From Boothiomyces macroporosus (lineage: Eukaryota; Chytridiomycota; Chytridiomycetes; Rhizophydiales; Terramycetaceae): DNA of 42,634 nt. The notes beneath the pieces were generated by a model that ran no database searches, was not told where the DNA came from, and was given only the letters and a program-made list of their open reading frames with translations. The stretch covers positions 1-42,634 of the forward strand of contig JADGKB010000112.1 in NCBI GenBank assembly GCA_027604185.1, written 5' to 3'. Below are positions 1 through 42,634 of this stretch, piece after piece. Position 1 is the stretch's first letter. Every line of letters begins with the position of its first letter. The position numbers were made by a program, and so were the translations under genes.

Positions 1-98
1 CAAATAACCAGCCCAACAGTGTTGCACTTTTGGAATCTCCTTTCAGCCAATAAACACTATTATCTTTGCAAGTGGGACTAGACTTTTTCTAGTTGGTA

Positions 99-1725
99 AT
101 GCATCTTGCAAATTCAATGATGTCATTGCAAAAAGTTTTTATTAATATGCTCCCGCTCTTGCTACAGCTCTCAAGTGCTACACTGCTAGTGGAAAACCAA
201 TATTTTAATCATCATTGCCCAGATGCCCCAGATACAATTTACGCATTTAACGTGTCAGATCCTTTTGCGTATGACCCAACCCTAAACGAAACGTTTCCGT
301 CTTACTTTAGATTTCATTTTGGAGATGTAACAGTGGGAGATACTGCCAATTGTTATGTTCCTGTTCCTGGAATAGCGTGTACAGACTCTTTGGCACCATC
401 GCTATCACTTCCGTATCTTAGTGGAAGCACTACGTGGTTTGACGGAATAAATGATTTGGAAGCTTCAGTGCCAGTAGGTGCAAATGGTCACACTTATTGC
501 TTCTTATCCAATACCGTTGGTGATACAGCTTCTTTGCTTGGTTACGAAGCAATGTTACTACTACAAAAAACAGGGCAGTGCTACGATGATTACTTTGAAT
601 GCAATTCATCAGGTGTGTTTACCTATTATGCCTCAACGGGCTGCAGTGGTGCTGTGTTGGATCAACTAACTTTATCTGATCCAAGAAATATTTCCTCCAA
701 TCATTTGGGCAACATTACCGTCCAATTAAAAACATTTGAAGCAGCACAGATTTTCTACTCTTGGAGCCAGCATGTGCCAACCGTAGATTTGGTGCCTCAA
801 TTCGATATGCCAATTGATTACATAGCTGCTACGATTTTTGGCATAACTATCGCACTGGCACTCACGCTGCCAATATCTACCATAGTTGAATATGTTAAGG
901 CTAAAAAAAGGTTACAAATACTGAATTACATAGTCCTAATCAGTCACTTTTTCTTTTTCTTTTGGACAATTCTAGTAACATTATTTTGGCGCTTGGAATT
1001 TCCAGTAGTAGAATCTATGGCTATATTTGCAGAATTTAGGCAGGATTTTTTCAATATAGCGTCTCTACTGTTTACTATGCGTACCGGTTACATTATTCAT
1101 GCCGCGTTCTTTCAGAAACAAAGGTAAGGCATTCTAAAACAGATACATGATTTATGCTATGCATACATTTGTTTTTTTAGTTCATGCGGTGTGTATGGGT
1201 TCTAGCTACAATGAATATCTTGCCAACGGTGGCGACAACAATTACATGATGACTGTAAACCCAAATATCATTAATTTCCTAAACAATTGGGATGACGCCA
1301 GTTACTTTTGGATTATTTTCATGTTTGTTTGGAATTGCACCCCGCCGCTAATAATCTCTATCAATCTGGTTACTTTGAAGTTCATGACTGTCAACAAGCT
1401 TGGCAAATCTCCAACTGAAATTGTTAAAAAGCTGTTTCAAATTGACAAATACCTTCCATTACTCCTAGTTTGCCAAATTTTGGTGATTGCTGGTTATTTG
1501 ATTCTCAAGTATATTAAGCTGCAAACTCCAATGCTTGGCAATGACATTGTCTACCAGGATGTAACTTCATTCGGAACATTTTTTATGATTGTTCATGTCG
1601 TTCTAAGTGCCAGGATTAATGAAACTATTCGAATTGCGTTAGAGTATAATTTCACACAAACTAATATGGTTACGACGAATATGCCTACCACAATGTATAG
1701 AATGGAGACTGACGGCCAAAATTAA
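99..1725 (+). CDS. Receptor-like membrane protein with large extracellular domain, about 7 TM
   Basis: Two exons, 99..1123 and 1143..1725, joined by a 19-nt GT-AG intron; about 535 aa. The first in-frame ATG is at 99; ATGs at 117/120 give a better signal peptide (hydrophobic LPLLLQLSSAT), so the start is not settled. After the signal comes a Cys- and Asn-rich extracellular part of about 230 residues with N-glycosylation-type sites (NVS, NET, NSS, NIS). Then follow about seven hydrophobic helices, beginning near IDYIAATIFGIT and ending near FGTFFMIVHVVLSARI, and a short Ser/Thr/Met-rich tail. The layout (secreted N-domain plus about 7 TM) is that of a surface receptor. I do not recognise a named family and it is not obviously similar to the three 7TM receptors further along. 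The first 98 bases may hold further 5' sequence. Confidence 0.7.
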
Positions 1726-1830
1726 CATTTTTGAAACTGCGATTATTATAAATTGAATTAATTCAATGCATAGTCTGATTTTATTTTGGTTGATCTTCGA
1801 TGTTGCGCAGTAATTGTAACATCATAAAAC

Positions 1831-3296
1831 TTATTTTATTTGATTTAAAAACGACTCCACGGTGAACCGAATACTTAAATCAAATTGTCCGATTGTATTT
1901 ACATCAAGTAAACGTAGCAATTTCTCGTTATCAGTTGGATGAAAGAGGGCTTCGGCGCATTTCCACGTAAAAATTAATTCAATAATTTCGTGAGGTAGTG
2001 GAAGCATCTGGAGCAATCTGGAGGCAATTAAAACGCGTTTGGCCTGTGAGGTTTGTATCGCAATATTTCTTTTTCGAACAGGATTGAAAAAATCGAACCC
2101 TGAAAGGTCAAGTAGATAGAAATTCTTTTGAAGTCCTTGAAGTAGAAATTGCTCGTTTTCTGCCGCTTGCCTAAATATAACCAACAATTTTAACCCTTTG
2201 TTTTTAGCGAGCATGTCCCCAAGTGCTCTACAGAACAGTTCACCATCATAATCTTCTCTTCTGTTCAGGACCAGTTCCTTCAAGTACACGTTCCTTGAAA
2301 TGCCATTCAAGAGAATCTGAATACAATCAATATCGCATTGTAGTACCTCCAAGGAAAGAAAACTTAATGTAGTATTTCGTGATAATCCTTTGGCGAAATG
2401 TTCCATTCCCTTTGTACTAATATCGTAATGATCCAATTTGAGTTCTTTGATCGATCTTGTTTTTGCGAGTAATAATCCAAGGGCAAACATGCCATGGTCA
2501 TCAATATAGTTTGATGATAAATCCAATTTTTTGATTCTTTGGGCTGATAAACTAGCCTCAACGACTGCGGTAATCGTTGCAGATCCAAACTTGTTGTTTG
2601 ACAAGTCAAGATCCTCCAAAGACCTATTTTCAATCAACATGCTTTTTATATCTGGAGCAATGTCATCTGTCAGGTCGCAGCCCACCAAGCATAGTTCTTT
2701 CAAGCTAGCTAATCTCGATATAGACTTGCAGAATGCTGAAATACCGCTATATTGACAAGTGACCCACCCCAAATAAATCTTGTATAGTTTGGTTTCAGCC
2801 CAGTTGACTCCAGCAAGTAAATTATTCGCAGTAACCGTATCAAATATCACTACATAAGAAAACTCTTACAGTCTATATCCAAAATACTTATATGCTTGTT
2901 TGAGTTCAATGTATCAATCAGCAATCCTAGATTTTGCGGTAAGCAGTCAGTTAACCCTATTTCCTTCACAGAAGTATTTTCAGACAAGCACAGGCATATC
3001 AGCGCTAGTGCGGATTTATCTGATTCGCCATACAGTCCAATTCCTGACTCTAATTCAAGCAATCCCTTTAATTTTTCCATTTCCTGCAGGAAAGTCACAA
3101 ATCGTTGATGCGAGTATTTGTTTGAAACTACATGAATCTTTGACTGTGTTTCTTTATAGAATTCTACATATTCCTGATAGTTGGTGAGGTATTTTCGCTT
3201 GAGGGCATCAAGAAATGTCTCCATTTCGAGATTGAGGTTCGCGAAAGCTAAAATTGTCTGAAGCAAAAACCATGGAACTGCTTGGCTGACAGACAC
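1831..3296 (-). CDS. Leucine-rich repeat protein (ribonuclease-inhibitor type)
   Basis: Two exons on the minus strand, 3296..2870 and 2849..1831, with a 20-nt intron at 2850..2869; 481 aa. The middle holds at least five LRRs of the RNI/NLR type, with motifs such as LEDLDLSNNKFG, IKKLDLSSNYIDD and IKELKLDHYDIS at about 28-residue spacing. The N-terminus (VPWFLLQTILAFANL) resembles a degenerate F-box and has no good signal peptide, so the protein is probably cytosolic. It is likely a protein-protein interaction module, perhaps a ubiquitin-ligase adaptor like the F-box/LRR gene at 26229, but that is inference. It is divergent from the TBC gene with 215 bp between start codons. Confidence 0.8.
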
Positions 3297-3511: not shown

Positions 3512-6500
3512 ATGTGGACTTTTCCAACACCAGTAGAACCGTCCTCCCTCTGGCAAACAGAGATGGTCATACATGGCTAATTCTAGGAGAATGGAAGCTT
3601 TGTTTTGCAGAAATATCAAGGAAATGAGAATAAAACCATGCTGAAAAATATATGGGCGACAGTACAGAATGTGTAAGTTGGATATAATCTAGCTTTGAAA
3701 TGAAACAGCCGCCATTCAGAATTGTTTTCAGAGTAAAGACTCCGGATGCAAACAGCGGAAAGATGGTTAGTGTAAGCAATAGATAACAAAAGGCGGCGGA
3801 AACACTTCGTGAAATTCAGCAAGATTGGAAGTGGATTGAAGGTACTATTTGAATAAATCTAGAAAATGTTTTGAGCGAAATGAATGAGCTGGAGGATGAG
3901 GCAGACAAAGAGGCTTACGGAATGTCAAAATTCATGTCCCTTGTTCATAACCCAGGTATATCTTGATTGATGAAGACGGAGGATCCGACGAAAAGTCGAC
4001 AGATGCAAAATACAGGGCAGCAGCAAGATCGTGGAGGCAACTATTTAGAATGCCAGAAGAAGAAAAGTTTGTAAACTTTTATTCATGCTCTTACCATCAA
4101 AAGCTACTAAACCAAGGTTGGCTCTACATATCAATGTCGTACATTTGCTTCTACTCGTCTATTCTGGGGGCAGAGACCAAAGTGGTAATTGAATTGAAGC
4201 AAATCACAGAGATTTCAAAAGAACGATCCAAAAGAGGAATGGTTTCTGATGCAATCAAAATTGTAACTAAAAACAAAATCAATGTAGTCCTTTAATAACC
4301 ATAGCACTTTTTTTCAAACTTATTTCAGAGGGATGAAACATACGAATTGATTGAATATCTGTTGAATATGGCAATGATGAAGCTCTTGCACTCCACCGCT
4401 ACTGAACCTGCACCTGGCGAATCCAGTCAGCCAGAGTCAAATGGGGAGCGGTCACAGCCAACAGCTGTCGTTGAGTTCCTGAACAATCCTGATCATAAAC
4501 CTTTAAAGCAACTATTTGAAATTCAAAAAAAGAATCAAGCATTTCAAGCACTATTTTCAATACCTAGTACAGATACCATATTAGAAGAAACAATCGCAAT
4601 ATGCTCAATATCTGGGACAAATAACAATTTCCACGGAATGCTATACCTGTCTCAAAACTTTATATGCTTTGTGTCTACTGCCAAGTATCAATGTCAACTC
4701 ACTTTGCCATTCTTTGCGGTAATGCGAGTAGAGAGAATTAATACGCAAAACTCTACTGTTGCAATCACAGCACGGCACAATCTCAAACTACTTTTCCAAT
4801 TTACAACCGATAAAGCAACTTCAGATAAATTCTGTGGCATTTTAAAAGATAGACTCCAAGAACATGTGGCATCGATGAAAAAATTAAAGTCATTCTTGGC
4901 TACATGTCCCTCAGAAGAGTTACTTGCTGGCAAAGAAACTGTTGCAAGCGGACTTGGCGCAATATTTGAATACCCTGTTGATCAAAAAAAGTATTCCTTG
5001 TTTCACATAGATCAAATGAAAAGCAAAAGATTCGCTTTTGGCTGTCTTACTTTAGAGAATTTGGTCGTAACTTGACTACAGTCAGACTGCCTACATTCAT
5101 CAAATTGGTTCGGGTTGGATTACCGAATTCACTGCGAGGTGAATTATGGGAAGTCTGTTCAGGTGCGATCCACAAGCGATTTGCCAAAGAAGGATATTAT
5201 GAACAGCTTCATGCGGATCATGTGGGATTCAAGTCATTATCTATTGAAGAAATTGAAAAAGACTTGAACAGAAGTTTGCCTGAATACAAAGCATATCAAA
5301 CGCCGGAAGGAATCAATTCATTGCGTCGTGTACTATATGCATATTCATTTCATGATCCAGAGATTGGATATTGCCAGGCAATGAACATTATCGTTAGTGT
5401 GCTGCTGATCTTCATGTCTGAAGAGCAAGCTTTCTGGTTGTTGACTGTTTTATGTGAAAGGATGCTACCAAATTATTACACGTAATACTAACTAACTTAG
5501 CGTGAATATGGTTGGTGCTGTAATTGATAACAATGTTTTTGAAAAATTGGTCAAACAATTTATGCCTATCTTGGGTGATCATTTACAAAAATACGAAATC
5601 CAATTATCGGTAGCTTGCTTGCCATGGTTTTTGACATTGTTTGTCAACTCCTTCCCACTACCGTATGCCCTTCGTGTGCTTGATTGCTTTTTCATGGAGG
5701 GTGCCAAGTTCTTGTTCCAAATGGGCCTGGCCATTCTTAAAGTAAATGGAGAAGAAATTCTAAAGATCAAGGATGAGGGAGAGTTTATGTAAGTTTGGTT
5801 AACCGCAGGAATATCTTGAAAACCTACTTTACCAAATTGGGCGAAACCCAACCTGTTGAAAACAATGGAAAAGTAGCTCGCCAATCAACGAAATTCAATC
5901 AACTTATGCTGTGCGCTTATAAAGAATTCCAAAATGTTACAACTGATTTGATTGTATCCCATCGAAAATCAATCCAGCTGGAAGTAATTCAATCAATGGA
6001 TTTATATGCAAAGAAATCCACAATCAGACAGCTAAAGTCAACATACAAATTTTCCAAAGATGAGCTACTTTACGTTTGTGATGCATTTTCAACAATTCAG
6101 TACTACAACAACTCCAAGAAAGCTCAAGATAAAATTAGCCTTGGGGAATTCAACAAATTTATGAGCCACATTTGCAATTGGGCTGTTGATAATGTGGAAG
6201 GCGACGACACTAGACAATTTGCCACTACATCGGTTCAAGGCTTATTCTTTTTATCCCTGCTATTTAAACGTGTTTTTGATAAGAATGGTGATGGTCTAAT
6301 TGATCTTCAAGATGTTGTAACAGGCTTATCTGAAATAATGCACTCTGGAGGAACGCTACAAATGTTCTTTACCCTTCATGATTCTGACCAAGATGGCAAA
6401 CTAACTCGCGAAGATACCATTCATTTATCAGAATCGTTGCTATTCTTGTTCCGTAATATGCAAGGAGACGCTCCATTGTCTTCTGTATCAGCTTTACTGA

Positions 6501-6973
6501 ATAGGGCATTTACCTCAAAGCAAGAAGAGCCTTTCCTGTTGACATTTGCCGACTTCCAAGAGCTGGTGATACCAGATGCTTTCTTGGTAGAATATTTTGC
6601 AACGTTCAATTCCACATTTGTTCTTAATGAAACAAAAAGTGGTGTCTATACAAATGTAAAAACAATGCCAGTTAGAGAAATTACTGAATCCATATTCTCG
6701 GGAGGTATAAAATGGGCGACTGGACTAGGAGACAAGATGGTTGGAAAGAAAGCTGGAAGTGAAAAGGTATTGTCAGATGAATCTCCAGAAGCAGTTCCTT
6801 CAGTTAAAGCTGCTGATCAGCCAACAGAAGCAGAACATATAGATGACAAGGCACTGTTGGATGAAGGTAATATACAACTAATTTTAGTTGACGATCTACT
6901 GAGAGAAAGTGGGTTTGGAGAACTAGATGAAGTTTCTCAAAATGTTGAAAAATTGGAGCTGGAACAATCTTAA
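3512..6973 (+). CDS. TBC1D8/9-type Rab GTPase-activating protein (GRAM-GRAM-TBC-EF-hand)
   Basis: Ten exons: 3512..3565, 3587..3672, 3693..3771, 3793..3841, 3863..3955, 3976..4286, 4305..4990, 5011..5481, 5501..5788, 5809..6973; 1093 aa. All nine introns are 18-21 nt. The start MW..P..V....LW and the next exon (SFVLQKYQG) match the N-terminus of animal TBC1D8/9. GRAM domains lie at about residues 144 (FRMPEEEKFVNFYSCSY) and 306. The TBC domain at about 485-700 has both catalytic fingers: Arg in IEKDLNRSLPEY (about 531) and Gln in YCQAMN (about 573). EF-hands DKNGDGLID (about 863) and DSDQDGKLT (about 898) follow. The family accelerates Rab GTP hydrolysis in membrane traffic (yeast relatives are Gyp proteins). 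The 3' end converges on the mS45 gene with 27 bp between stop codons. Confidence 0.93.
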
Positions 6974-7000
6974 TATATTTTAATCATTCAATAGTTTCAA

Positions 7001-7862
7001 TTATCTTGGACCCATTGCGAATCCTTTTGGTTTTCCATTTCGTTTCAGCCAGACTTCACTTGTACTTGCTTTTCTTAAATCACCATTCTTTTCTCTAATA
7101 AATAATTGTCCACTAGATGTATCGGTAATCATAAAGGAATGTTTGCCTCCTTTCAAAGCATCAGTATCAATAGGTGCTGGTTTCGCAGATTCTTCAAATA
7201 CTTTGAATTTCTTGTTCAAAGTCTTGTCAAAGTTTTCTTGTGGTTTCAATTTCAGCAATACTGCAGCGTCCTAATATGAATAAAAAGGTACTTCTGGGGA
7301 GAGGTGCTTTTCCTCATCTAGCAATTGGATAAATGGCTTGTTGGCAGCCAGCACAGTTTCCTTCAATGGTTCCAAACGAGATTCCGTTGAAGCTTTGCCC
7401 AACATTTGCTCCATGCCTTCCACTAAGGGTGCTGTAATTTTTGTATCCATCTGGGTTATCTCCAATTACCTGTTTTCCCAACGACTTTAATCTTAGGATT
7501 GCTTCAACTCTAACAATTGAAATACCAAACTTTTCTGCCAATTGGCGAGGTGTCCATTTTGTGCTGTCCTCTTCGTATAGGTCAAATATTTCTTGTCTGG
7601 TTTTATTGGAGAGGGGTGGTCTTGGTTTAAAATATGGATTCATTGGGAATGGCTATGGAATTAATCAGCTAGTTACTCTATCTGCCTTGATGAAATTGCG
7701 GAGTTTAGGTTCCAAATATTGCTGTAATGGGTCGTTATTCTCCTCTTCCACTGGGGCTTCTTGAACTATCTCCTGGGCAGCTTCCTCTGCGACTATAGGT
7801 TCTGCTTGGGTACTGTATCGAAGGAATAATTGTCTCTTTGGAATTCGTCGTAGCAACATCAT
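7001..7862 (-). CDS. MRPS35: Mitochondrial small-subunit ribosomal protein mS45 (Bot1/MRPS35 family)
   Basis: Four exons on the minus strand: 7862..7677, 7652..7470, 7450..7292, 7270..7001; 265 aa. Introns are 24, 19 and 21 nt. The N-terminus MMLLRRIPKRQLFLRYST is a typical mitochondrial presequence, followed by a Glu-rich linker. The core PPLSNKTRQEIFDLYEEDSTKWTPRQLAEKF.. and VEAILRLKSL is the signature of the fungal Bot1p/'eukaryotic mitochondrial regulator' family, now known as mitoribosomal mS45. It should work in mitochondrial translation. The 5' end is head-to-head with TAF5, only 37 bp between start codons, so the two probably share a promoter. The family call rests on motif memory, not a search. 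Confidence 0.8.
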
Positions 7863-7899: not shown

Positions 7900-9912
7900 A
7901 TGGCAGATCAAACAACGAGCGATAGAATCGTGGCAAATTATCTGGCAAAGAGAGGTGAGAGGGTATTAACGATTAGGTAGATGGTAGTTGACGTTAGGTT
8001 ACAATAGATTAACAAAAAGGATTCAAAGGTGCGGAACATTCATTTCGCCAGGAAGCTAGATTAAAAGATGCACCAGAACCAGTGGATGACGATTCGATAG
8101 CAAACTTTGTCTTGTTTTACAACGAGGAAGAAGCGAATAACCCTAAAGCGTACGAGCAAAGTTACGCTCGCTTGGTGAAATGGGTGGACGATTCGATTGA
8201 TACATACAAGGTACTTGCTCCATAATTCAGCTTGAATTGAAGCGCATATTATTCCCGATATTTGTCCATGCATACTTGGATTTGGTTCAGAAAGGTTCGC
8301 AGGAAGCAGCATCACAATTTTTTGAACAATACAAAGGGGATCACTTGGAATCACACGCAAATGAAATATTTTGTTTGTCTGCAATAAATGATCCAATTCA
8401 CCTCCAAGAAGATGAATTATGTGTCAACTACAGGCAAAACAAATATGGAATCAAGATGTGTAAATACTCGTTTGAGCTGCTTTTAAGTTTCCTGCAGGAC
8501 AACAAATTTATGATGATACTAAGATTGATGAACCAATACATTACGATTCATGGTATCTATTTTTAATGAAGCAACCAATGATAAACCAGGCCAGCTACAA
8601 GAATCAGATTCCGGAACAGGATTGATTGGGACCGATATTTCACTGACGGCATTTAATCAGCAACAAGTACAATTGGGCCCAATCCAACCTGATGTCGCAT
8701 TTTACGGGGATATCGAGCGTGCTCTAGGTGTCCAAATTCATTCTGATGGCCCAGAGTTGCTTGAGCAAGTCCAGAAGGTAATAGCATCACAGGAACCAGG
8801 CCCTGCATTAGAAGATGTACCACTTCCTCCAAAGAAATTAATTGATATACAAGCGGAAATCGAATACCTTCGTGATTTACGCTTAAGAGTAAATTTGAGC
8901 TCGAATAACTTACCATCTATTGTGTGCTACACTTTTCACAATACTGAAAATCAGTAAGGGATATTTAATTAGATTAAACTGTCTAAAAGCCTCCAAGAAT
9001 GCAGAATATCTCGCTGCTGGATTGAGTGATTCCTTTATAAAGCTGTGGAATGTAGTAGCTAATAGACCAGAAATTCCAGGTAACCCTAATTTAAACTAGC
9101 CCCTGCACCAACCAATTTGATTGGCCACTCTGGTCCTATTTACGGTTTAGATTTTAGCAGTGATGGGAAATATTTGCTATCTGCTTCTGAAGACAAGTCT
9201 GGTAATTTGCAATTGATCTAGTTCGCCTATGGTCGACTGAAACAAAGTCTGCACTCGTTTCCTATAAAGGACATAATTATCCAATTTTCGATGTCGCTTT
9301 TGCCAATCAAGGATTCTATTTTGCGACTGCAAGTGCAGATAAAACCGCTAGACTGTGGTCGCTAGATCATATATTCCCTTTGCGTCTATTTGTAGGTCAT
9401 TTATCGGATGTTGATGTAAGATGTTATTGATGTAGTATGTTAAATTCCATCCAAATTGTAACTATGTTGCTACCGCAAGTAGCGACCAAACGTGCAGACT
9501 ATGGGATATTCAAAAAGGAAACTGTGTTCGTATTTTCCCCAAGCATAATGGCCCAGTGACTGCAATTTCTATATCGCCAGATGGCAAATTGCTAGCCAGT
9601 GCTGGTGGTGATAATGCGGTTAGATTGTGGGATATTAATAGTGGACAGCTAATCAAAAAAATGTTTGGTCATGAATCTACAGTAACATCTTTAGACTTTT
9701 CTCAGAACTCTACTTTGCTTGCAAGTTCAAGTGACGATGACACTGTTAAAATCTGGGATGCAAAGAAATCTGATACACTTCCATTATCATCATCAGTTGC
9801 AGATACCGCAGAGGAATGCATCAGAAGCTTCACTACCAAACGAACTCCTATTTACAATGTTGGATTTACAAGTAGAAACGTTCTGGTGGCATTGGGAGTA
9901 TTTGCCAAATAA
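7900..9912 (+). CDS. TAF5: TFIID subunit TAF5 (LisH, NTD2, WD40)
   Basis: Eight exons: 7900..7954, 8020..8210, 8231..8551, 8571..8953, 8973..9079, 9100..9201, 9222..9415, 9436..9912; 609 aa. Introns are 65, 20, 19, 19, 20, 20 and 20 nt. LisH motif at about residues 8-35 ([22 protein letters not shown]). The TAF5 N-terminal domain follows, with [21 protein letters not shown] and FRENKY-like [12 protein letters not shown]. From about residue 317 there are six WD40 repeats ending in LW/IW (for example [24 protein letters not shown]). TAF5 is a scaffold of TFIID (and in some fungi SAGA) at RNA polymerase II promoters. The length is at the short end for the family. The first intron is exceptional; see the separate entry. 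Confidence 0.95.
7955..8019 (+). other. 65-nt compound intron: three abutting intron-like units
   Basis: This intron joins ...AKRG to FKGAEHSF in the LisH motif. It divides exactly into 7955..7976 (22 nt), 7977..7997 (21 nt) and 7998..8019 (22 nt). Each unit begins GT, ends AG and has a branch-like TAAC or TGAC 4-8 nt before its AG, exactly like the other introns of this window. No coding base lies between units. It may be one long intron, or three minimal introns removed one after another (zero-length exons). Confidence 0.7.
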
Positions 9913-31051: not shown

Positions 31052-31386
31052 TTAAAGAGCGTATTTTTTGATGGCAGCTTCCAACTTGATAGGATCAGCA
31101 CCAACTACTTCTTCAACCAATTTGGCATTTTTGTAAATGTGGAAAGTTGGCATTGAGGAGACTTCTGCTTGTTCAGCGATTTCTGGGATTTCATCGACAT
31201 CCAAAGAAATGAATTTCATTTTGGTGTAAGTTTCAGCGAATTTTTTGAATTTTGGTGAAATCATTTTGCAAGGGCCTAAATTAAATCCCGATTACCACAC
31301 CAGGTAGCATGAAAATCACAGATGACGAGAGGATTTTCCTTTAAAATGGTTTCGAATTGTTGTGCAGAAGTGATTTCCAAAGACAT
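31052..31386 (-). CDS. TRX: Thioredoxin
   Basis: Two exons on the minus strand, 31386..31296 and 31275..31052, with a 20-nt intron that splits the active-site motif; 104 aa, normal for cytosolic thioredoxin. Active site ATWCGPCKM with Cys30 and Cys33. Other marks are KFISLDVDEIPEIAEQAEVSSMPTF (cis-Pro) and VVGADPIKLEAAI. It reduces protein disulfides. There is no targeting peptide. Confidence 0.97.
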
Positions 31387-31681: not shown

Positions 31682-32917
31682 ATGACTTCAGACTGTAGTT
31701 TGTTTGAAAACGTTATAGCGCCGGCTTTGGGATTAAAGTCTAATAGTTACGGAGATTGCTGCTATCGATATGGGATCAATTGTGATGGAAATGGTTATAT
31801 TACGGGTCTTCAGCTTGATTGGAGACAAATGACAGGATATATTCCACCTGAAATTGGGCAGCTTAGTCACCTTCAAGTACTGGTGTTGGCAAATAATAGA
31901 TTAACAGGTAATATTTCGCCAATAGTAGGAACTATTCCCAAGGAAATCGGACAGCTGCAAAACTTGTATAAACTAGATTTATCAAACAACCAGTTGTCTG
32001 GAGAGGTCCCCCAAGAAATATATAATCTCCCAGGATATTCCGGATCAACTTTTAACTTTGGAACATTGCTTCCGACTGTCACTGTTGCTACCTTGACTAG
32101 TATCTTAACTACCACTACTACAACTACTACAACTACAACTACTACCACTACAACTACTACAACTACAACTACAACGAGTTTGCAATCGTCTTCAATTGGA
32201 GTATCTACAACCATGTCAGTGACAAGCACGTTGGGAATCGTAAACTCAACTTCTACACCTAATTTAAGTGTCAATGACTCGATTTCCGACACGACTGTAA
32301 AAATTAGCTAATTTAGATATTTACTATATTTGGAAGTATTGTGGGGGTATTATTTGTTATATTGTTTATTTCCTTAATTTATATTGCTATTACAAGAAAT
32401 GATGTAAGTTCCAACTAACCTCCAGGTGGTGCCAGATGATGACGATCAAGGCTACTTACTTAAAACGACTTCATTCAGAAATCTAAATCATGACGTTCCT
32501 GACAACATCGATTTGCTTCCAAAAGTAGTGCAGCTGAATTCGTTCTCCACTGATGTGAATCAAGATGACGCTATTGAGTTGGCGGATTCGGCAAAAGGTA
32601 AGCCTACTGAATCCAATTATCGAGTTTCAATCGATCACTCTACTCAGACTGATTTTGAGCCGCGGTATTCCTTCGAGTCAAATGAAGCTTTTCATTCTCA
32701 ACCAAGAGATTCAGCTCAAACTGGACACAGAAATTCTACGCAATCGAACAGTAGACTGGAAGTTCAGCCGTTTATTACAGAGATTGAATCTTTAATTGGA
32801 TCAATTGGGCATAGAAGTCGTACCGAGCTGGTGACAACACTCTATCGACACTCTGCAACTGCCAATCCCAATGCGGGCAGCAAGGAATTTAGTATTGATC
32901 AAGTGTCGCTGGACTAA
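31682..32917 (+). CDS. LRR single-pass transmembrane receptor-like protein with poly-Thr stalk
   Basis: Four exons: 31682..31907, 31929..32296, 32317..32403, 32426..32917; 390 aa. Introns are 21, 20 and 22 nt. It starts MTSDCSLF like the paralog at 11201, then a CC...CDG cap and two or three LRRs ([41 protein letters not shown]). A stalk of 23 consecutive threonines and further Ser/Thr text follows, suitable for O-glycosylation. One TM helix lies at about 200-225 ([20 protein letters not shown]). The about 160-residue cytosolic tail is Ser/Gln/Asp-rich with no kinase. The 21-nt intron 31908..31928 has no in-frame stop and could be missed; removing it restores the LRR phrase [12 protein letters not shown]. 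No signal peptide is seen. Confidence 0.83.
32108..32176 (+). repeat. ACN trinucleotide tract coding 23 threonines
   Basis: Twenty-three Thr codons in a row, mixed ACT, ACA, ACC and one ACG, forming imperfect 9- and 15-base periodicities (ACTACTACA units). The codon mixture suggests selection for threonine and not only slippage. It encodes the extracellular stalk of the LRR-TM protein. Confidence 0.9.
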
Positions 32918-33041: not shown

Positions 33042-33934
33042 ATGCACCCAACAAAAAAAATCAGACAGACGGATAGTGTAGCATTTCTTGGTCCAAAAGG
33101 AACTTTTTCATACGAGTGCGCTACACAGGTATTCGGCGATGCAGAATATGTTCCCTGCCAGTCGATTGCCAAAGTGTTGGAAACAGTTCAAACCAACAAG
33201 GCGGATTATGGCATAGTACCATTCGAAAATTCAACTTTCGGAACTGTATTACAGACTCTCGACTTTTTTGTAAATACAAAGCATGCAAATGATTCCGATC
33301 AACCCCATGGGTTCGTCATATTGGACCAGCACTACCTCACTGTTCATCACAACTTATTGGGGCAAGACACGGAATTAGACCGTATAGAAAGAGTATACAG
33401 TCATCCAGAAGTACTTTTTAGTTAATATAGGCGTTGGGTCAATGTTCAAAGTGGTTAGATAAACATTTGCCCAAAGCAAATAGAGTTCCAGTCGGTTCGA
33501 CAGCTCAAGCAGCGGAAAAGGCAAAGCAAGACCGTACTGCTGCCGGCATCTCCTCAATTGCATGCGCAGACATCTTTGGTCTTCACGTAATTGAAAAGGA
33601 TATCGAAAATTTGGCAAACAACACAACTAGATTTTTTGTAATCGGCAAGAAAGTTAGACAGCCTACTAAGAATGACGGTACTTTGGTAATGTTTACTTTG
33701 AACCACGACCAGCCGGGTAGTTTATGTGATGCACTGGCAATCATGAAGGATCACGGAATCAATTTGACGAAAATAGACAGTCGTCCAAGTGGGAAAGGGT
33801 TATGGCATTACATGTTCTTTATGCAGTTTGATGGGCACATGAATGACGATAAAGTCAAACTGGCGATGAAATCATTCAAGCCAAAGGTTTTGGATTTCAT
33901 GATCATGGGCTCTTACAAAAAACAATTGCAATAA
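33042..33934 (+). CDS. PHA2: Prephenate dehydratase with ACT domain
   Basis: Two exons, 33042..33410 and 33431..33934, with a 20-nt intron; 290 aa. The ATG at 33042 is the first in frame (an ATG at 33022 is in another frame). Dehydratase motifs: VAFLGPKGTFSYECA, DYGIVPFENSTFGTV, VYSHPEALGQC and NNTTRFFVIGK (the catalytic Thr-Arg-Phe). The ACT regulatory domain follows with NHDQPGSLCDAL and ESRPS-like KIDSRPSGKGLWHYMFF. It converts prephenate to phenylpyruvate in phenylalanine synthesis and is normally feedback-inhibited by Phe through the ACT domain. Its presence shows the organism can make phenylalanine. Confidence 0.96.
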
Positions 33935-33957: not shown

Positions 33958-34925
33958 TTATAGCTCTTTATCTGCCCAACCTTCGTTTCGTATGAACCAG
34001 TACATATTCAGCATCCCACCACTACTTTAGCAAGAATTACCAATTCATTCCCATATCGCAGAGAATAGCTGTCCAGTCGGGATAGTAATCAAACAAATTC
34101 GCAACAGGCGTAGGCACAGCGGAAGTCCACTGAATGAAATAATTGAGAATATAACTAAGAACTTTTCTGCTAGCCGTGTCGGACATTTTTTTGAAACGCG
34201 AATTTCTAGAAGATTGTACAGATTCACTTTTTCTTGTGCCTGGGGCTTTACTCTTTAGTTGATCGATATTCGAGCTAGCATAGATCGAATTATCTCGATC
34301 CAAAATCTTTGTATGCTCCATCACAGTACGAATTTTCATGTATACTTGGCTCGAGAAAAAGAACGCTGCAAGAAATATAGAAAATTCAACACACAGACCC
34401 ATTATACTGAGCGATTTATCTGTTGCGTAGCTTTTATCAAAACACCTGAATTAGTGTATTGTACCAGTATCTCGATGGACCAGCCGATGGCAGACCCGCC
34501 AAAGAAATTCCAGTTGCAAATAATAGAACGCATGTAAACAGCTTCCAGTCGTGTTGTCCAAAGTCTAAATTTCTTTCCAGTACTACTGATGAGTAAGTTG
34601 CCATTGAGATACACAGAATCAATGACATATTCGCAAATACTGCAATTCCAACCATCGTGGCAGCAAATTTGCACATTGCTCCATCCCAGTTAGTTCCGTA
34701 GAGCAAATCATGAATCTGATCTGTTAGCTCCACTATTGCAAGAAATATATCCGTGATTGCAATGTAAAATGGAAATCGTAATGTGAGTGGTAACGAACCC
34801 AATTTTCTCCAACGAAGTATTACGCGAATAATTATGTATGTAGAGCAAACCATACTAATGCACATAAAAGACCAGCCTATTCCATATACTATTGCGGCTG
34901 CATCTGGCGGGTCGGTATGGTCCAT
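33958..34925 (-). CDS. Seven-transmembrane receptor 2 (GPCR-like)
   Basis: Three exons on the minus strand: 34925..34465, 34445..34041, 34021..33958; 309 aa. Introns are both 19 nt. Clear paralog of receptor 3 next door and of receptor 1 at 25 kb: shared YGIGWSFM, LPLTLRFPFYIAITD, MCKFAATMVGIAVFANM, LSYILNYFIQWTSAVP, DMGMNCGGMLN and the tail IRNEGW. The third cytosolic loop is Ser/Lys/Arg-rich (SESVQSSRNSRFKKM). It is probably a G-protein-coupled surface sensor with unknown ligand. It lies 83 bp downstream of receptor 3, consistent with tandem duplication. Confidence 0.88.
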
Positions 34926-35008
34926 GAATTAATCAATTACGAAAAGCAACTTGATGACGTTTTCTTTTATTAAAGGTCTTTTTGCTACATTGATATTATA
35001 TTATTAAG

Positions 35009-36005
35009 CTACTCTTCAATTATGTCTTGCCATCCTTCATTCCTAATGAACCAAAACAGGTTTAGCATTCCTCCACTACATCAAAAAAGAAATACCAGTT
35101 CATTCCAATATTCGCAAGTACAACTGTCCAATTTTCATAGTAATCAAACAAGTTTCCAAAGGTGACGGGCAAAGCAGAAGTCCACTGGATGAAATAATTC
35201 AAGATATAGCTCAGCACTTTTCTGCTTGCTTTCTTTGACATTTTTTTAAACCTTGACTTTGTGCCCTTGTTGACGGTATTTTTAGTAGTGACTGACACCG
35301 ACTTGTCTTTTGGGTTTGGCGCAAATGACCCTGAATGCATTCCGTGTAATTCTGACGATCTGTCTGATTCGTATTTTTCCAATATCTCTGATTGCCGCAT
35401 TAATTTTCTTATTCGTAGATATACCAGAAATGAAAAGATGAATATAGTTGTAAAGATGGTGGATTCTACGCATAGTGCCATGATACTCAGGGATTTATCT
35501 GTGGCATAGCTTTTGTCAAAGCACCTGGATCAGTCTTAAACTACCAATATCTCGATGGGCCCGCAGAAGGTAATCCAGCAAATGCTACCGTTGAAGCAAA
35601 TAAAACAATAATGAGAAACAACTTCCAATCATATTTTCCAAAATTCAAATTCTTGCCCAATACTGCAGAATAGTATGTCGCAATAGATATGCATAGTATC
35701 AACGTCATGTTTGAAAATACTGCCACTCCCACGATAGTTGCTGTTAGTTTACACATAACTCCGTCCCAGTTTGACTGATAAAATACGTCGTGAGATTGAT
35801 CCAAACATAAAGCAAATGCCAGGAACAAGTCTGTGAATGCAATGTAAAATGGAAAGCGGACTGTCAGTGGTAAAGATCCTTCCTTTCTCCATCTCCTAAT
35901 CACTCTGAATATTATATAAGAAGAGCATATAATACTGACACCCATGCATGACCATCCTAATCCATAAACTAAATAAGCCTCATCCTGTGGATCTAATTGG
36001 CTCAT
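35009..36005 (-). CDS. Seven-transmembrane receptor 3 (GPCR-like)
   Basis: Three exons on the minus strand: 36005..35545, 35524..35096, 35075..35009; 318 aa. Introns are both 20 nt and sit at the same positions as in receptor 2. Same core as its tandem neighbour (YGLGWSCM, LPLTVRFPFYIAFTDL, ATIVGVAVFSNM, NYFIQWTSALP, NIGMNCGGMLNLFWFIRNEGW). It differs mainly in the third cytosolic loop (KDKSVSVTTKNTVNKGTKSRFKKM). A 60-codon open frame upstream overlaps the ATG (see next entry). Confidence 0.88.
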
Positions 36006-36479: not shown

Positions 36480-37977
36480 ATGTCAACAGAAGAAATCGTA
36501 AGAGAACAGAGAAAGGCAAAGACTGGAGAGCCAGAAGAAAAACCGCTTAACCCACATATACCTCTATTTATCGCTAAAAAACCATGGTACTTGGATCAAG
36601 AATTGGCAACTACTTTCAAGCCAGAAAAAATTGATAAATTTGACAAATGGTATGACCGAGGAAAGTTTCAAGGACCAGCAGCAACGAAATATAGAAAAGG
36701 AGCTTGTGAGAATTGCGGAGCAATGTCCCACAAGACAAAGGATTGTCTAGAAAGGCCAAGAAAGAAAGGAGCGAAATGGACAGGGTTGGATATCCAGCCA
36801 GATGAAGTTGTACAGAAAATTGAACTTGGATTTGATGCAAAGAGAGATCGCTGGAATGGATATAATCCAGAGGAGCAGTTGAGACAAGTTGAAGAGTGGG
36901 AATTGGTGGAGGAAAAAAGAAAAGCGAAACGACAAGAGAAGCTCAAAGATCTGAAAGAATTGGATGAAAGTGACGATGAAGAAAAGTATGCCGAAAGAGG
37001 TGAAGCCGTTGGGCAAAGGGTGGATGATAAAACAAGAGTAACAGTCAGAAACCTGCGTATTAGAGAAGATACTGCCAAATACCTTCGCAACTTGGATCTG
37101 GAATCGGCTCATTATGACCCTAAGACCCGTACCATGAGAGATAACCCCTATGAAGGCAAAGGTATTCCTTTTTCTAATGTAGATCCCACCCAAGTAATGT
37201 ATGCTGGCGATAACTTTACGAGATACACTGGTCAGTATGCCGAGGTATTTTTTATTAATTTTAGGTAGCGAAAATGCAAGCATTTGCTTGGGAGGCAGAG
37301 AAGCGTGGTCAAAAGGCACTAGCAAATACTAATCCAACACAAGATGAACTTATGTTTAAACAGTATGCTGACAAGCCAAATATTGAATCTCAATTAGAAC
37401 GTGAGTCATTGCTAGAAAAGTACGGCGGGAAAGAGCATTTGGAGACCATTCCACAAGAACTATTATTGGCGCAAACTGAGCAATATATTGAATATTCTGC
37501 TACAGGAGAGGTGATAAAAGGACAAATCAATATCCCAAAATCAAGATATCCAGAGGACATGTAAGCAATTTTCTAAATTATAGACTAATCGGTAATCACA
37601 CACATATCTGGGGCAGTTACTGGAGAGATGGTCAGTGGGGATACAAGTGCTGCCATTCTCTTTTAAAAGGATCTTATTGTGGGGGACAAGCAGCAATCGA
37701 AGCAGAGCAAAACCAAATTACTCGTAGCTCACAGAAGCGCAGTACCAAATCTCTAGCTGAACAAAACAAAGAACAACAGATTGAAAACAAACCAACAAAA
37801 AAAATGAGAACTGACGATGGAGAGTTGGATCAAGATAAAGTGCAAGAAGCAGTCAAACAAATGCGTAGCAACAAATTTGTGGATGGAGATCATATGACTG
37901 CTGAACAACTTGAAGCATACCGAATTACAAGGAAAAGACATGACGATCCAATGGCAAATTACGTTGATAAGGAATAA
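36480..37977 (+). CDS. SLU7: Pre-mRNA splicing factor SLU7
   Basis: Three exons: 36480..37244, 37265..37560, 37584..37977; 484 aa. Introns are 20 and 23 nt. The start [12 protein letters not shown] is chosen over an in-frame ATG at 36423 because family similarity begins there. The family core is [15 protein letters not shown]. The CCHC knuckle [14 protein letters not shown] has Cys76, Cys79, His84 and Cys89. Also seen are [49 protein letters not shown] and the C-terminal [24 protein letters not shown]7 acts in the second step of splicing, in 3' splice-site choice. Notable here because nearly all introns have the branch site directly next to the acceptor. Confidence 0.97.
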
Positions 37978-37997
37978 ATTTGATGTAATTAGTTTTA

Positions 37998-38946
37998 TTA
38001 CAAATGGAACTTTCTTCTGCTCGTATCTAGTTCAGGTTTATGGACCCATTCAAACACCCCATACTTTGTATCAAATAAGCCATTTTGTAACCATCGCAAC
38101 TTTAACGTGAATCTTGGACCAATTTCTTGAATGTCAACTTTCTCGCCATTCCTAAATACATATCTATGTCTTCGGAAGAATATAAAGTCACGCTGGTTAT
38201 GTATAGTAACTGCCTGTCTACCTTTGAAATCTGGTTGCTGAGGGAATAGTGAGGAAAACATCTTTCCAATAGTATGGCCCAGTCTACATTTAAATTGAAT
38301 TACCTAGTGGTAAAATTGTTTAATATTAATTCTGGTTTGTAATCTTGTAGCTTTCCGTGGCCCCTAATATTGTTGTTTAGCTTAATGGAAGAGAGTTTGA
38401 AATGGGCAGTCGGGCCTTCTGGTAAATGTACGATTGTGACCGCATTTGGCATTTTCTTGTCATGGTTCACAATAATCAAATCTGGGATAAGGTTTAAATT
38501 ACCAGTGTAATTCCTAGAGTTTGCAATTTCAATAATCTTTTTAATTTCAAATTGGCTGGAGCGTTTTACAAACTCTGCGTTGGGAAAGATGCTGACAAAT
38601 TCATCAACAAATTCGTAAACTGGTCCAGGACAGCGTCTGGATGTAGTAATGAGAATCTTTGGCTCCACACCATTTTTGAAATATCCTAGAATTAGCAAGA
38701 GTAACCATCGAATTCGTCTTCAGCCTCTTCTACTTCTTCGTCTCCTTGCACAATCGTCTCATCCACTTCTCTCAAAGTTTCCAAAGTTTTCTGTTGGTTT
38801 TGCTTCAGACGCTGTTCCTTCAATTCAGGTTGCAATTCCTCCTGCTTCCTCCGAGCTTTTCTTTCTTTGATTTCATTGGTTGTTTTTTCTTTCTTTAGCT
38901 TTTGGTAGATTTGGCTTCTCTTTATCTTGTTTTTAATATCTCTCAT
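37998..38946 (-). CDS. RPF1: Ribosome production factor 1 (Brix domain)
   Basis: Three exons on the minus strand: 38946..38706, 38685..38304, 38283..37998; 302 aa. Introns are both 20 nt. The basic N-terminus [18 protein letters not shown] and [16 protein letters not shown] are RPF1-specific. The Brix domain has [81 protein letters not shown] and [13 protein letters not shown]. It binds pre-rRNA in 60S subunit assembly in the nucleolus. The stop is 20 bp from that of SLU7. Confidence 0.96.
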
Positions 38947-39382: not shown

Positions 39383-40727
39383 ATGTCCAAAAACAAAGAC
39401 AGACAATCCCTAATCAGTCCCACCATGTTTGCCACGCAAGTAGTCGCTATATTAACATTTAGAGCAGAGTATTGCGAGCTAGACCTCAACAGCAAAACGT
39501 TCAAATTCAAAAAGAAAAGGAAAAAAAGACTGTTAAACCAGTGAAGCGAGCTGCTCTTGGCGACTTGAGCAACGTTCAAAAGGTACATCCTCTCTCATAA
39601 TAGCAACAACCTGCTAAAAAGAAGCCTGTTGCCAAACCTGTTGCGAAAAAGAAGGTGGTCAAAAAAGAAGTTGAAAAGCGCAAGACTGAAGAACAAATAG
39701 ATAAACCAGAGGTCCAAGTCCAAAAGAAAGCGCGTACTATTGATCACGACGATTTAGATCTTGAAGATATGCATGATCCTGTTATGGTTTCCGAATATGT
39801 CGATGATATTTTTGACTATTTGCGTGAATTGGAAGTACGCTCTGACTCACCTAGAAACAATGCCTTCCTAATGCTGATTACATGGATATGCAAAAAGAAT
39901 TGCAATGGAAAATGCGCACAATTCTCATTGATTGGCTAATTGAGGTTCATGTAAAGTTTAGACTCTTGCCAGAGACTTTGTACTTGGCAGTTAATATTAT
40001 TGATCGATTCCTATCACTCCGCGTAGTCGCTCTGCAAAAGCTTCAGCTTGTTGGAGTTACTTCCTTGTTTATTGCTTCAAAGTACGAAGAAGTTGTTTCT
40101 CCTAGCATTCAAAACTTTTTATATATGGCAGAAGATGGTTATACCGAAGACGAAATCGTAAAGGCTGAACGCTATGTTCTCCAAGTTCTAAAGTTTGGTC
40201 TTCAATACCCAACCCCAATGTCGTTCTTGAGAAGAAGCAGCAAAGCTGATGACTATGATATTCAAACACGTACTTTGGCAAAGTACTTGATGGAGATTTC
40301 ATTGGTAGATCATCGATTCCTCGTTACCCCTGCTTCCTTGGTAGCAGCCTCTGCCCACTACCTTGCCAGACACATGTTGAACAGAGGACCATGGGTATTC
40401 GCTTACTAATCACAGAACAAAAATCTTATCCATTATTCTGGATATCAAGAACACGAAATGTCCTCTACTGTTCAACTTTACCTTGAATACCTTTTAAAGA
40501 ATCCTCAGAACAGTCTTTTCAAAAAGTATAGCCGCCGCAACTTTATGAAAGGTGCTATCTTTGTAAAGAACTGGATTGAAACACATAAATCAAATGGTTT
40601 ACACCCTATTCCAGATCATGAAATGAATGTTGATGCTCGCAATGCCAACAAATTAATTGAAAGCGAGGAAGATTTACCTGAAGAGGAAGAAGCTGACACT
40701 GAAGGGAATGCCGATGCTGATGAATAA
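39383..40727 (+). CDS. B-type cyclin
   Basis: Five exons: 39383..39439, 39463..39582, 39604..39834, 39855..40394, 40416..40727; 419 aa. Introns are 23, 21, 20 and 21 nt. The N-terminus carries a destruction-box type motif (RAALGDLSN at about residues 47-55) and a Lys-rich segment. The cyclin box is classical: PNADYMDMQKELQWKMRTIL, DWLIEVHVKFRLLPETLYL, DRFLS, LQLVGVTSLFIASKYEE, LQYPTPMSFLRR and YLMEISLVDHRFL. The C-terminus has an acidic extension (EEDLPEEEEADTEG). It partners Cdk1 for entry into mitosis and is expected to be destroyed by APC/C. Confidence 0.96.
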
Positions 40728-40833
40728 ATTTAAGTTTTCATGTGCCTTAACTCTCCTGTATTCTTGATCAGGAACGGCTACTAAAGTAAGGTGAATCAAA
40801 GACCAGCCCGCAATAGTATACACTTGTTTATTT

Positions 40834-41673
40834 TTAAAGGATGAATGAGAGTATCAATAAGGTTAGGTAATGCGCGAAATTAGTGTTTCCTAAGATTAGC
40901 AAAGATTTACCCTGCCCATTTGATTTCGTTGGGGTAGGAACAACAGCAGTTGGAGCTACACTTGCAACTGTATTCTGGGGGTTTCCAGAATCAGTCAAGT
41001 TTGTAGCAGATGGAGTAAGGTTAGGTATAGATCCAGATTGAACAGGGCTACTTGAATCTCCATTAGCTACAGGCTGTAAAGGCAAACCAGTCGGTGCAGA
41101 GGGTGAGCTAGGACTTTGAGGAGCAGGTGTAGGGCCGCCATTCATTAATGCGGCAAATACAGCCGGTCTGGTAAGAAAGTCGATCTGATCAGCACCAGTA
41201 GCTTGCGGATTACCAGGAACTGTTTTTAATGAATTTCCAGGATGCTGTCTAGTTATCGGACTGATTAAAACTCCATTGTCATTCCCATTTCCATTAATTT
41301 GAGGCTGAACTTGCGTTGTAGGGACTGGCGGTGGTTTACCACCCATAGGGAATAGCCTTGAAACTATTCCTGACCCAGGCTGATCGCAACTTCCGATTTT
41401 CCAATCAATTACACTTGAAGAGTCGTCGCTTCCGTAACTGAAATAGTATAAAAATGTATCTATATCTGTACATAAATCTGAATCGCAATAGGCATTCTCT
41501 TTGTAAGCTTGTACATTGAATGAATTGCCCATAAACGTCAGGCATAGGGTTGTCCCACAGGGTAAATCCTTTACACTTTCACCATACACCATAACATAAA
41601 TGTCGTCATCAGGTATTGGGCAAGTCTTTTTCTTTGCGAGCGCCTGTGCTACCAATAGCCAGTGCAGCTTCAT
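40834..41673 (-). CDS. Secreted or GPI-anchored Ser/Pro-rich surface protein A
   Basis: Single exon from the ATG at 41673, 279 aa. Signal peptide MKLHWLLVAQALA. A Cys-containing N-domain (TCPIPDDD, LPCGTTLCL, AYCDSDLC, IGSCDQP) is followed by a long Pro/Ser/Thr/Asn-rich stalk. A C-terminal hydrophobic tail (FAHYLTLLILSFIL) after Ser/Gly/Asn residues fits a GPI signal. It shares the pattern C..P, G.C.QP, PP.PTTQVQ and the hydrophobic end with the neighbouring gene, so the two are tandem paralogs. The function is unknown. Confidence 0.72.
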   Translation of the reverse strand: MKLHWLLVAQALAKKKTCPIPDDDIYVMVYGESVKDLPCGTTLCLTFMGNSFNVQAYKENAYCDSDLCTDIDTFLYYFSYGSDDSSSVIDWKIGSCDQPGSGIVSRLFPMGGKPPPVPTTQVQPQINGNGNDNGVLISPITRQHPGNSLKTVPGNPQATGADQIDFLTRPAVFAALMNGGPTPAPQSPSSPSAPTGLPLQPVANGDSSSPVQSGSIPNLTPSATNLTDSGNPQNTVASVAPTAVVPTPTKSNGQGKSLLILGNTNFAHYLTLLILSFIL

Positions 41674-41796
41674 TAGAAATTGAAAAAGACTGCGCTCTCC
41701 CAATTCGGAAGTGGCAAATCCCTGTACAACCTTGGCCGTAGTGGCAGTCAAAGAAAACGAGATTCAAAGAGATATTAATGTATTAGGAATATCCCT

Positions 41797-42533
41797 TTAC
41801 AAATAAAGGGACAATAAAATATATGGAATGTAAATTTGAAATAATCGGAAGTTGGAACTGGTATCACTGGTTGTAGCCGAACTTTGTGTTCTTGGGGACT
41901 CTTGAGCTGTAATTGGCTGACTACCCTCGGTAGGCAAGGCAGCAGTTGAATCTATTGTGCTTGTGGTCCCTGGATTAATTTTTCCTGCGTCTAGTAAATT
42001 GTCAGCATTGGATGGTCTGGTAAAGACAGGCTGCGAATCCATAGTTTCCCTCATCGTTTGAAATAAATGATTTGTAACTGCTATCGTTTGAACGAGAATA
42101 GAGTCTTCTACTTGGGTTTGAACAGGGATTTGAACATTCTGTACTTGGGTTGTTGGGGTTGGTGGGTCCTTGAACACCAGTAGTGGGAGGGTTTTGTGAT
42201 ATGGCTGAGAGCAGTTGCCTAGGACATATTCATATCTTCCTATCCGGGAAAAGAAACGAGTTTTTAAATATCTGCCCAGCTCTTGTTCCTCTTGTTTGGT
42301 AATACACATTGTCGAGTTGCACATGCTTTCATAAGTAACAATTGGTGAAATATAAATAGATTTGTGGTAGGCGGGAAAGCATATTTCTGTGGGGCAGTTT
42401 TCCATTGGCAGAGTGGTCTAGGTTAATTAGTGCTTACATAGGCTGATAGCTCCAGCATAGTCGAATTAAAGTCCCTTTGTGAGCAGGCCAAGCTGTAGTT
42501 AAATAATAGCAGGGAATGACTTTGTATCCTCAT
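41797..42533 (-). CDS. Secreted or GPI-anchored surface protein B
   Basis: Two exons on the minus strand, 42533..42438 and 42417..41797, with a 20-nt intron; 238 aa. The weakly hydrophobic start (SLLLFNYSLAC) may be a signal peptide. The Cys-domain has MENCPTEICFP, SMCNSTMC and GNCSQP; the stalk is Thr/Ser/Gln-rich with PPTPTTQVQ; the end IYIPYILLSLYL is hydrophobic as in a GPI signal. Paralog of protein A, 123 bp away on the same strand. The last 101 bases of the window (42534-42634) show no feature. Confidence 0.68.
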
Positions 42534-42634
42534 TGAAAAAAAATAAAGTCACAAACGCAAAAGACCACGAGACATTCCGTATTGGGGGGTTTCAAAGTTG
42601 AATAAATTTAAAAATGTACAGTAAAAAATGTTAC

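Follow-up and report, generated by a model that had tools for sequence, protein, structure and literature searches.

Predicted introns of 19-22 nucleotides, some of them back to back, in a 15.2-Mb genome assembly

Contig C112 of the assembly G000 (15,203,306 bases in 216 contigs), analysed here over its whole length of 42,634 bases and referred to as the window, carries genes that are interrupted by many segments of about 20 nucleotides (nt). Judging from the sequence, these segments are very probably genuine spliceosomal introns of the U2 type in a nuclear genome, which keep genome-wide to a narrow band of 19-22 nt and would be recognised by intron definition, with their length acting as a signal.

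Predicted intron lengths and the length peak

The survey covered the window and, for each of the 20 contigs C1-C20, a single 10-kb stretch (242,634 bases in total). Genes were predicted with a gene-structure model whose coding part was trained on long open frames and which in its final version, used for the counts in this section unless stated otherwise, combined a learned length prior with a flat share; gene names given as "by eye" were assigned by inspection. In the window the model placed 33 genes and 83 introns, and 79 of these introns were 18-24 nt long (18 of 19 nt, 37 of 20 nt, 16 of 21 nt, five of 22 nt, two of 23 nt and one of 24 nt, besides four others). An earlier note on this DNA had counted about 86 introns in the window, 84 of them at 18-24 nt with a peak at 20 nt, and the independent model confirmed this. 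The length histogram that the note had named as a check, taken over 242.6 kb, comprised 161 genes and 338 introns, 328 of the latter at 18-24 nt (3, 80, 139, 70, 27, 7 and 2 introns of 18, 19, 20, 21, 22, 23 and 24 nt, respectively) and 316 at 19-22 nt. The 20 loci outside the window contributed 255 introns, 249 of them at 18-24 nt. The peak was unimodal and lay below about 25 nt in the survey as well as in whole-genome motif scans, as in the ultrashort-intron class, and the intron density in complete gene models was about 1.7 per kb of coding sequence.

Few introns departed from this size. The off-size calls in the window were of 12, 71, 89 and 129 nt; the 12-nt call (25288-25299, in a GPCR-like gene) was judged doubtful, and the 71-nt call, which by eye holds a 20-nt unit GTTTCAATTTCTAATTGCAG, resembles a modelling artefact. 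Of the nine survey introns outside 18-25 nt most were judged by eye to be artefacts or undecided, and a single 47-nt intron was found among the 338. The note's statement that almost every intron is short was right, but because of a small number of longer units "every" would not be correct.

The peak was also seen when no preference for length was built into the procedure. With GT..AG as the only site requirement, a uniform prior over 12-400 nt and no motif model, 42 of the 91 introns predicted in 242.6 kb were 18-24 nt long, and the same procedure applied to eight control dinucleotide pairs placed 4-11 of 73-84 segments in this range. When trained site motifs were used with the length prior still flat, 148 of 215 introns fell at 18-23 nt. 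Raw counts of GT..AG distances in the window alone were too weak to show the peak, and the gene-structure model and longer motif patterns were therefore used instead. Scanning the whole genome with no gene model for GTAAGT N0-30 CTAACNNAG gave 37 matches (including three copies in one repeat, C143:578, 2599 and 4620, with a period of 2,021 bases), and 35 of the 37 were 19-22 nt long, a clustering seen for the pattern side alone, the lengths of the reversed control matches not being displayed. The pattern GTAATT N0-30 TTAATNNAG gave 395 matches versus 62 for its reversed form, and of the 100 listed matches 76 were 19-22 nt long, with about one per length elsewhere and no surplus over the background at 36-45 nt among these 100.

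The predicted gene products also depend on removal of the segments. Complete models contained 289 introns of 18-25 nt, and retention of 274 of them would cause a frameshift or introduce a stop codon; in the window this holds for 74 of 79. After splicing in silico, ten of the 33 window proteins were compared with Pfam, and all ten matched above the cut-off, with domains continuing across intron junctions. The match ran in one stretch over most of the profile for TBC, TAF5 NTD2, LCM (PPM1), DLH, prephenate dehydratase, Slu7, Brix and two cyclin domains, and in two stretches for calreticulin and PAPS-reductase (FAD1-like). The placing of short introns in ordinary conserved genes (TAF5, calreticulin, SLU7, cyclin B, FAD1, PPM1), which the earlier note had proposed, was borne out by these spliced products. 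Errors of assembly or sequencing that inserted segments of about 20 nt into continuous genes would account for the odd length, and the assembly does contain duplicated stretches; however, random errors would not produce common GT-AG ends and a branch motif, nor would they recur on 20 other contigs and in genome-wide scans, and we consider this explanation extremely improbable.

Known nucleomorph genomes are smaller than 1.5 Mb. The note had taken the window for a segment of a nuclear genome, and this agrees with the assembly size of 15.2 Mb, far above that of a nucleomorph, and with the occurrence of the same class of introns on 20 other contigs. Origin of the window from a nucleomorph like the chlorarachniophyte one would explain the introns, which are of the same length class (PMC10245619), but the window encodes calreticulin and prephenate dehydratase together with secreted, protease-like and receptor-like proteins (by eye), and such an origin is very improbable.

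Intron anatomy and splicing machinery

The sites were analysed over the 329 survey introns of 18-25 nt. The donor was weak, with G at position 1, T at position 2 and, in 307 introns, A at position 3, followed by weak preferences for A and T, with G at position 5 in only 64; the acceptor was mainly TAG (216) or CAG (77). The branch motif TTAAY or CTAAY, which can pair with U2, was common. The branch A was followed by 5 nt in 137 introns and by 6 nt in 93 (230 together), by 4 or 7 nt in 18 and by other spacings in 32, and a recognised branch motif was lacking in 49; the earlier note, which had put the branch A about 5-7 nt from the acceptor, was close to these values. The information amounted to 5.95 bits in the donor, 7.14 bits in the branch and acceptor, and 6.54 bits in the length (relative to a uniform distribution over 18-400 nt). 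By eye, a kinase gene at locus L006 (near 1460-1591) apparently needs a 21-nt GC-AG intron (GCAAGT...TTAATCATAG).

The recognition sequences of the small nuclear RNAs (snRNAs) were canonical. Two copies of U2 snRNA (142.2 and 135.4 bits) had the recognition sequence GUGUAGUAUC intact, and the single copy of U1 snRNA had an intact canonical 5' end, AUACUUACCUG. All six splicing proteins that were looked for were present, namely Prp8, Slu7, Cwc25, Yju2, Isy1 and U2AF65. The Prp8 match spanned 1,287 residues (best PDB match 9r8v_A), and Slu7, encoded in the window, included the zinc knuckle (best PDB match 5xjc_Z, which we take to be human). In Cwc25 the N-terminal glycine plug MGGGDLNLKKSWHP was encoded, the tryptophans were kept and an RS-like tail was present; since the gene model extends a further 43 residues upstream, the plug would be terminal only with an internal Met as the start, which we assumed. 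The Yju2 alignment started at residue 1. U2AF65 was present although there is no space for a pyrimidine tract after the branch; its match (E 1.1e-67, 230.7 bits) lay below the family cut-off of 310.3, probably because the gene was read exon by exon. In Isy1 the first 31-37 residues were unaligned in four alignments, and exon 1 itself was uncertain because two introns there sit 1 nt apart. A search upstream in L028 for an Isy1 start motif gave one match, apparently unrelated, and no better start. The intron pair (L028 1259-1299) can be read as two introns of about 20 nt one nucleotide apart or as 17 nt plus a 4-nt exon.

Removal of the segments at the DNA level, as with the internal eliminated sequences (IESs) of ciliates, or their skipping in translation would be alternatives to the predicted splicing. 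The GT-AG ends, the U2-complementary branch motif and the fact that this genome also encodes U1 and U2 snRNAs and splicing proteins make either process most unlikely.

Several observations weigh against spliceosomal introns that are recognised partly by a fixed length. The U1 snRNA scored 68.8 bits, 0.7 under the Rfam gathering cut-off of 69.5. The reversed control of the GTAAGT pattern had 57 matches versus 37 for the pattern itself, and because of this only the clustering of lengths in that scan counts as evidence. A 65-nt stretch in TAF5 and an Isy1 intron of 46 nt hint at the removal of longer units as well. Within the complete coding models (171 kb), 448 decoy GT..AG pairs of 24-60 nt scored like 90% of the real introns, compared with 57 decoys of 19-22 nt and with the 316 survey introns of that length, so that sites alone could not separate introns from exons. 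This comparison counts in favour of length as a signal, but it is to some extent circular, a length prior having entered the gene models. The decoys at 19-22 nt in coding sequence were not clearly depleted (57 seen, 64.2 expected), an argument against length by itself being under strong selection; at 20 nt by itself 5 were seen and 11.7 expected. The only excess of decoys was at 21 nt (12 seen versus 4.0 expected, at a 25th-percentile cut), which we read as stop-free 21-nt introns concealed within coding models.

Predicted introns placed back to back

Pairs of well-scoring introns of 18-24 nt lying 0-4 nt apart occurred ten times in 260.8 kb, and second-order Markov control sequences gave 0, 0, 2, 0 and 1. 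Six of the ten pairs, at four sites, were supported: two in a METTL-like gene, one in MCM7, one around a 3-nt exon in L016 and two in Isy1 that represent alternative ends. The remaining four (a threonine-repeat stretch of the window, L005, the minus strand of L016, and L032) each had at least one unit in what the models read as coding sequence. A strict pattern for two abutting introns had ten matches genome-wide, and none was found for the reversed control or with a 10-nt exon in between. With fixed unit lengths there were 9 matches at spacing zero (8 distinct) versus 14 across the spacings 1-30; among these 14, three were triple arrays with an intron as the spacer, six lay at 1-5 nt (5 distinct) and five at 15-28 nt. 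The 218 internal exons of the survey had lengths of 0, 0, 0, 3, 7, 20, 22 nt and up. The arrays, in which complete introns at one position meet at AG|GT joints as in recursive splicing with zero-length exons, were as follows (unit lengths in nt).

OGG1: 19+20, two copies on C20
MCM7: 21+22
METTL-like gene: 19+19+19
BRE-like gene on C8, two arrays: 19+19+19 and 20+22+20
Sel1-repeat gene: 20+20+20
BTAF1-like gene (name by eye): 19+19
Armadillo-like gene: 19+19
C90: array with no gene model over the site

A further apparent triple array (19+21+20 nt) surfaced in the control search at C27:129684-129743 of G000. At L016 9110-9155 two introns surround the 3-nt exon ATG, and the repetition of ATG there suggests tandem duplication of a piece of exon together with the intron.

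Continuity of the proteins over the joints was clearest in OGG1, which aligned gap-free over the joint (FRW|IQT) with solved OGG1; at least in this gene, homology requires removal of the whole predicted array. For MCM7 the best matches of five chains started before and ended after the joint, the alignments themselves not being printed (best PDB match 28vy_7, presumably from budding yeast), and both arrays of the BRE-like gene lay inside its Pfam BRE match. Four genes (METTL-like, Sel1, BTAF1-like and armadillo-like) had the joint outside the best Pfam stretch or unscanned, and continuity over it was read by eye; METTL6 structures do not reach the array site, so that continuity in the METTL-like gene rests on a motif.

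We consider it possible, if somewhat doubtful, that the arrays are single introns of 38-65 nt which are removed in one step and in which the inner AG|GT joints are relics of duplication. The 46-nt intron of Isy1 and the 65-nt stretch of TAF5 with its poorly scoring inner units would fit this explanation. On the other hand, such lengths were rare elsewhere, with one 47-nt intron among 338 and no excess at 36-45 nt in the 100 listed matches, and the units that were not needed to detect an array mostly still scored as introns, although the spacers within arrays resembled each other no more than random sequence would (32 of 117 identical without the first BRE-like array, against a random value of 0.318). 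Most units had been chosen by motif, so that their high scores are partly selected; the scores of those not needed were 6.1 for the third METTL-like unit, 4.8 for the third BRE-like unit and 0.8 for the third Sel1 unit, and the second BRE-like array, whose units were likewise not needed for detection, scored 4.9, -0.1 and 5.1. Two units of the BRE-like gene were identical, in our reading a sign of recent tandem duplication.

The stretch in TAF5 (window 7955-8019, plus strand) can be divided at AG|GT joints into units of 22, 21 and 22 nt, all of which close with a branch-like motif and an AG, but the units scored poorly as introns (-7.0, -0.1 and -5.5), and its assignment as a clean triple array was downgraded for this reason. 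The LisH motif (19.8 bits, cut-off 21.6) continues only with all 65 nt removed, and the gene finder's own call at the site was 7963-8051 (89 nt). It could represent either an array that has decayed or a single long intron.

In the favoured reading the introns would be recognised by intron definition, their length adding a third signal to the donor and the branch/acceptor, and every unit of an array would be excised in its own round. The lower limit of length would be set by the need to accommodate U1/U6, the helix of U2 with the branch and the 3' site on one short RNA, and the upper limit by falling efficiency or accuracy. Exon definition would be excluded at exons of 0-5 nt, provided that both neighbouring introns are spliced separately. 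A stronger form of this model, to which the sequence leads us to give about even chances, supposes a spliceosome with a built-in ruler of about 19-22 nt that hardly takes longer introns; growth could then proceed only by whole copies, with arrays removed unit by unit and new copies arising by exact tandem duplication, for which the identical units of the BRE-like gene on C8 would be an example.

Genes of the window and comparison with known systems

The genes of the window with their introns are listed below; names rest on Pfam or were read by eye, as indicated.

117..1725, plus: secreted/7TM-like gene (by eye); intron 1124-1142 (19 nt)
1831..3224, minus: leucine-rich repeat-like gene (by eye); intron 2850-2869 (20 nt)
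3638..6973, plus: GRAM-TBC-EF-hand Rab GAP (Pfam); introns 3673-3692, 3772-3792, 3842-3862, 3956-3975, 4284-4304, 4991-5010, 5482-5500, 5789-5808, 6867-6887 (19-21 nt)
7001..7862, minus: mitochondrial-type small protein (by eye); introns 7271-7291, 7451-7469, 7653-7676
7900..9912, plus: TAF5 (Pfam); introns 8211-8230, 8553-8571, 8954-8972, 9080-9099, 9202-9221, 9416-9435
11201..11587, plus: LRR gene piece (by eye); introns 11329-11348, 11493-11511
11842..13144, plus: LRR/TM gene piece (by eye); introns 12009-12027, 12106-12124
13240-14277: secreted hydrolase-like (GDSL-like) gene with starch-binding-like tail (by eye); intronless
14295..15286, minus: PPM1-like leucine carboxyl methyltransferase (Pfam); introns 14410-14429, 14748-14766, 15208-15227
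15404..16200, plus: dienelactone hydrolase (Pfam); introns 15494-15515 (22 nt), 15682-15701, 15776-15795
16304..16973, minus: TLD-like gene (by eye); introns 16446-16465, 16577-16595, 16817-16835
18110..19349, plus: IFRD-like gene (by eye); introns 18304-18323, 18768-18786, 18972-18990
19376..20726, minus: gene; introns 19697-19717, 20681-20702
20773..22002, minus: calreticulin (Pfam); introns 21033-21052, 21179-21198, 21560-21579, 21688-21707, 21917-21938
24717..25808, minus: GPCR-like gene (by eye); introns 24799-24817, 24905-24924, 25320-25340
27067..27740, minus: gene; intron 27581-27600
27812..29290, minus: SH3-domain gene (by eye); introns 27883-27903, 28823-28841, 28904-28923, 29032-29052, 29155-29174, 29205-29226, 29234-29254, with a 7-nt exon between the last two listed
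29602..30330, minus: FAD1-like gene, PAPS-reductase fold (Pfam); introns 29726-29746, 29803-29822, 30031-30050, 30146-30165
30357..31035, plus: methyltransferase-like gene (by eye); intron 30837-30855
31052..31386, minus: thioredoxin-like gene (by eye); intron 31276-31295
31682..32917, plus: LRR/TM gene (by eye); introns 32297-32316, 32404-32425
33042..33934, plus: prephenate dehydratase (Pfam); intron 33411-33430
33958..34925, minus: GPCR-like gene (by eye); introns 34022-34040, 34446-34464
35009..36005, minus: GPCR-like gene (by eye); introns 35076-35095, 35525-35544
36480..37977, plus: SLU7, second-step splicing factor (Pfam); introns 37162-37182, 37245-37264, 37561-37583
37998..38946, minus: Brix-domain gene (Pfam; IMP4-like by eye); introns 38284-38303, 38482-38502, 38686-38705
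39383..40727, plus: B-type cyclin (Pfam); introns 39440-39462, 39583-39603, 39835-39854, 40395-40415
40834..41673, minus: gene; intron 40890-40910
41797..42458, minus: gene; intron 42418-42437

The three genes at 24717-25808, 33958-34925 and 35009-36005 are by eye related seven-helix receptor-like genes, two of which adjoin. In the assembly, matching stretches were seen between C49 and C100 (L025, L026), between C74 and C106, and between C20:66642 and C20:111709 (45 kb apart), and they are either recent duplications or unmerged haplotypes.

The lower limit of intron size is an open structural question, namely how U1, U2 and the 3' site are recognised on 20 nt. In practical terms, gene annotation that assumes an ordinary minimum length for introns would disrupt many of this organism's genes. 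With the arrays, unit-wise splicing and the gain of introns by duplication could be tested directly.

In recursive splicing, the sites divide up very long introns, and fungal stwintrons are nested, whereas here complete introns of about 20 nt are simply concatenated. Consecutive splicing at one position and AG|GT joints are shared with recursive splicing through zero-nucleotide exons (PMC8469720). Tandem arrays of ultrashort introns were absent from the openly licensed literature among the matches listed, which does not show their absence from print; complete introns of about 20 nt placed back to back with zero-length exons are new here.

Intron length in fungi is very varied, and a mean of 63 bp has been called relatively short for Cryptococcus neoformans (PMC8476143). 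If the organism is a fungus, as the earlier note held, introns of about 20 nt would extend the fungal length range; no genome of a fungus or chytrid-like organism in which the commonest intron length is near 20 nt appeared in titles and abstract openings of the openly licensed literature among the matches listed, which again does not show absence from print; PMC6784888 contains no reference to introns. In budding yeast the shortest known natural distance from branch to acceptor is 10 nt, and neither Slu7 nor Prp18 is described as necessary when this distance is short (PMC10711555). Slu7 is kept here although the distance, 5-6 nt by the convention of that paper, is about half the shortest of yeast.

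Among other eukaryotes, a 23-nt intron of Trichomonas has been called one of the shortest known (PMC12316389). The introns of Paramecium and Nyctotherus, of about 25 nt (PMC5014332), are also ultrashort; those described here are shorter, and the gene models close at standard stop codons. Chlorarachniophyte nucleomorph introns of 18-21 nt (PMC10245619), next to which nucleomorph introns of 21-27 nt are reported to splice less efficiently (PMC5014332), belong to nearly the same length class, but they are found in a relic endosymbiont nucleus, as opposed to a genome of 15.2 Mb. Mikrocytids, with introns of 16-17 nt (PMC10245619), likewise have a narrow range and many introns; here U1, U2AF65, Cwc25, Yju2, Isy1 and Slu7 were found. 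The cases met in the papers are ciliates, a relic nucleus and strongly reduced parasites, and in the present genome every splicing part looked for was found.

The heterotrich ciliate Stentor coeruleus has introns of 15-16 nt (PMC9505925). Common to both systems are the tight length peak, the GT-AG ends, the richness in A/T, a tail of 5 nt after the branch A and canonical U1 and U2 recognition sequences, and perhaps also a divergent N-terminus of Isy1. Unlike in Stentor, the introns described here are of 19-22 nt at about 1.7 per kb of coding sequence. Moreover, Stentor Cwc25 is reported to be without the glycine plug (PMC9505925), whereas the Cwc25 found here, which has an RS-like tail, encodes it, an indication that introns of 20 nt do not require the steric adaptation that has been proposed for Stentor.

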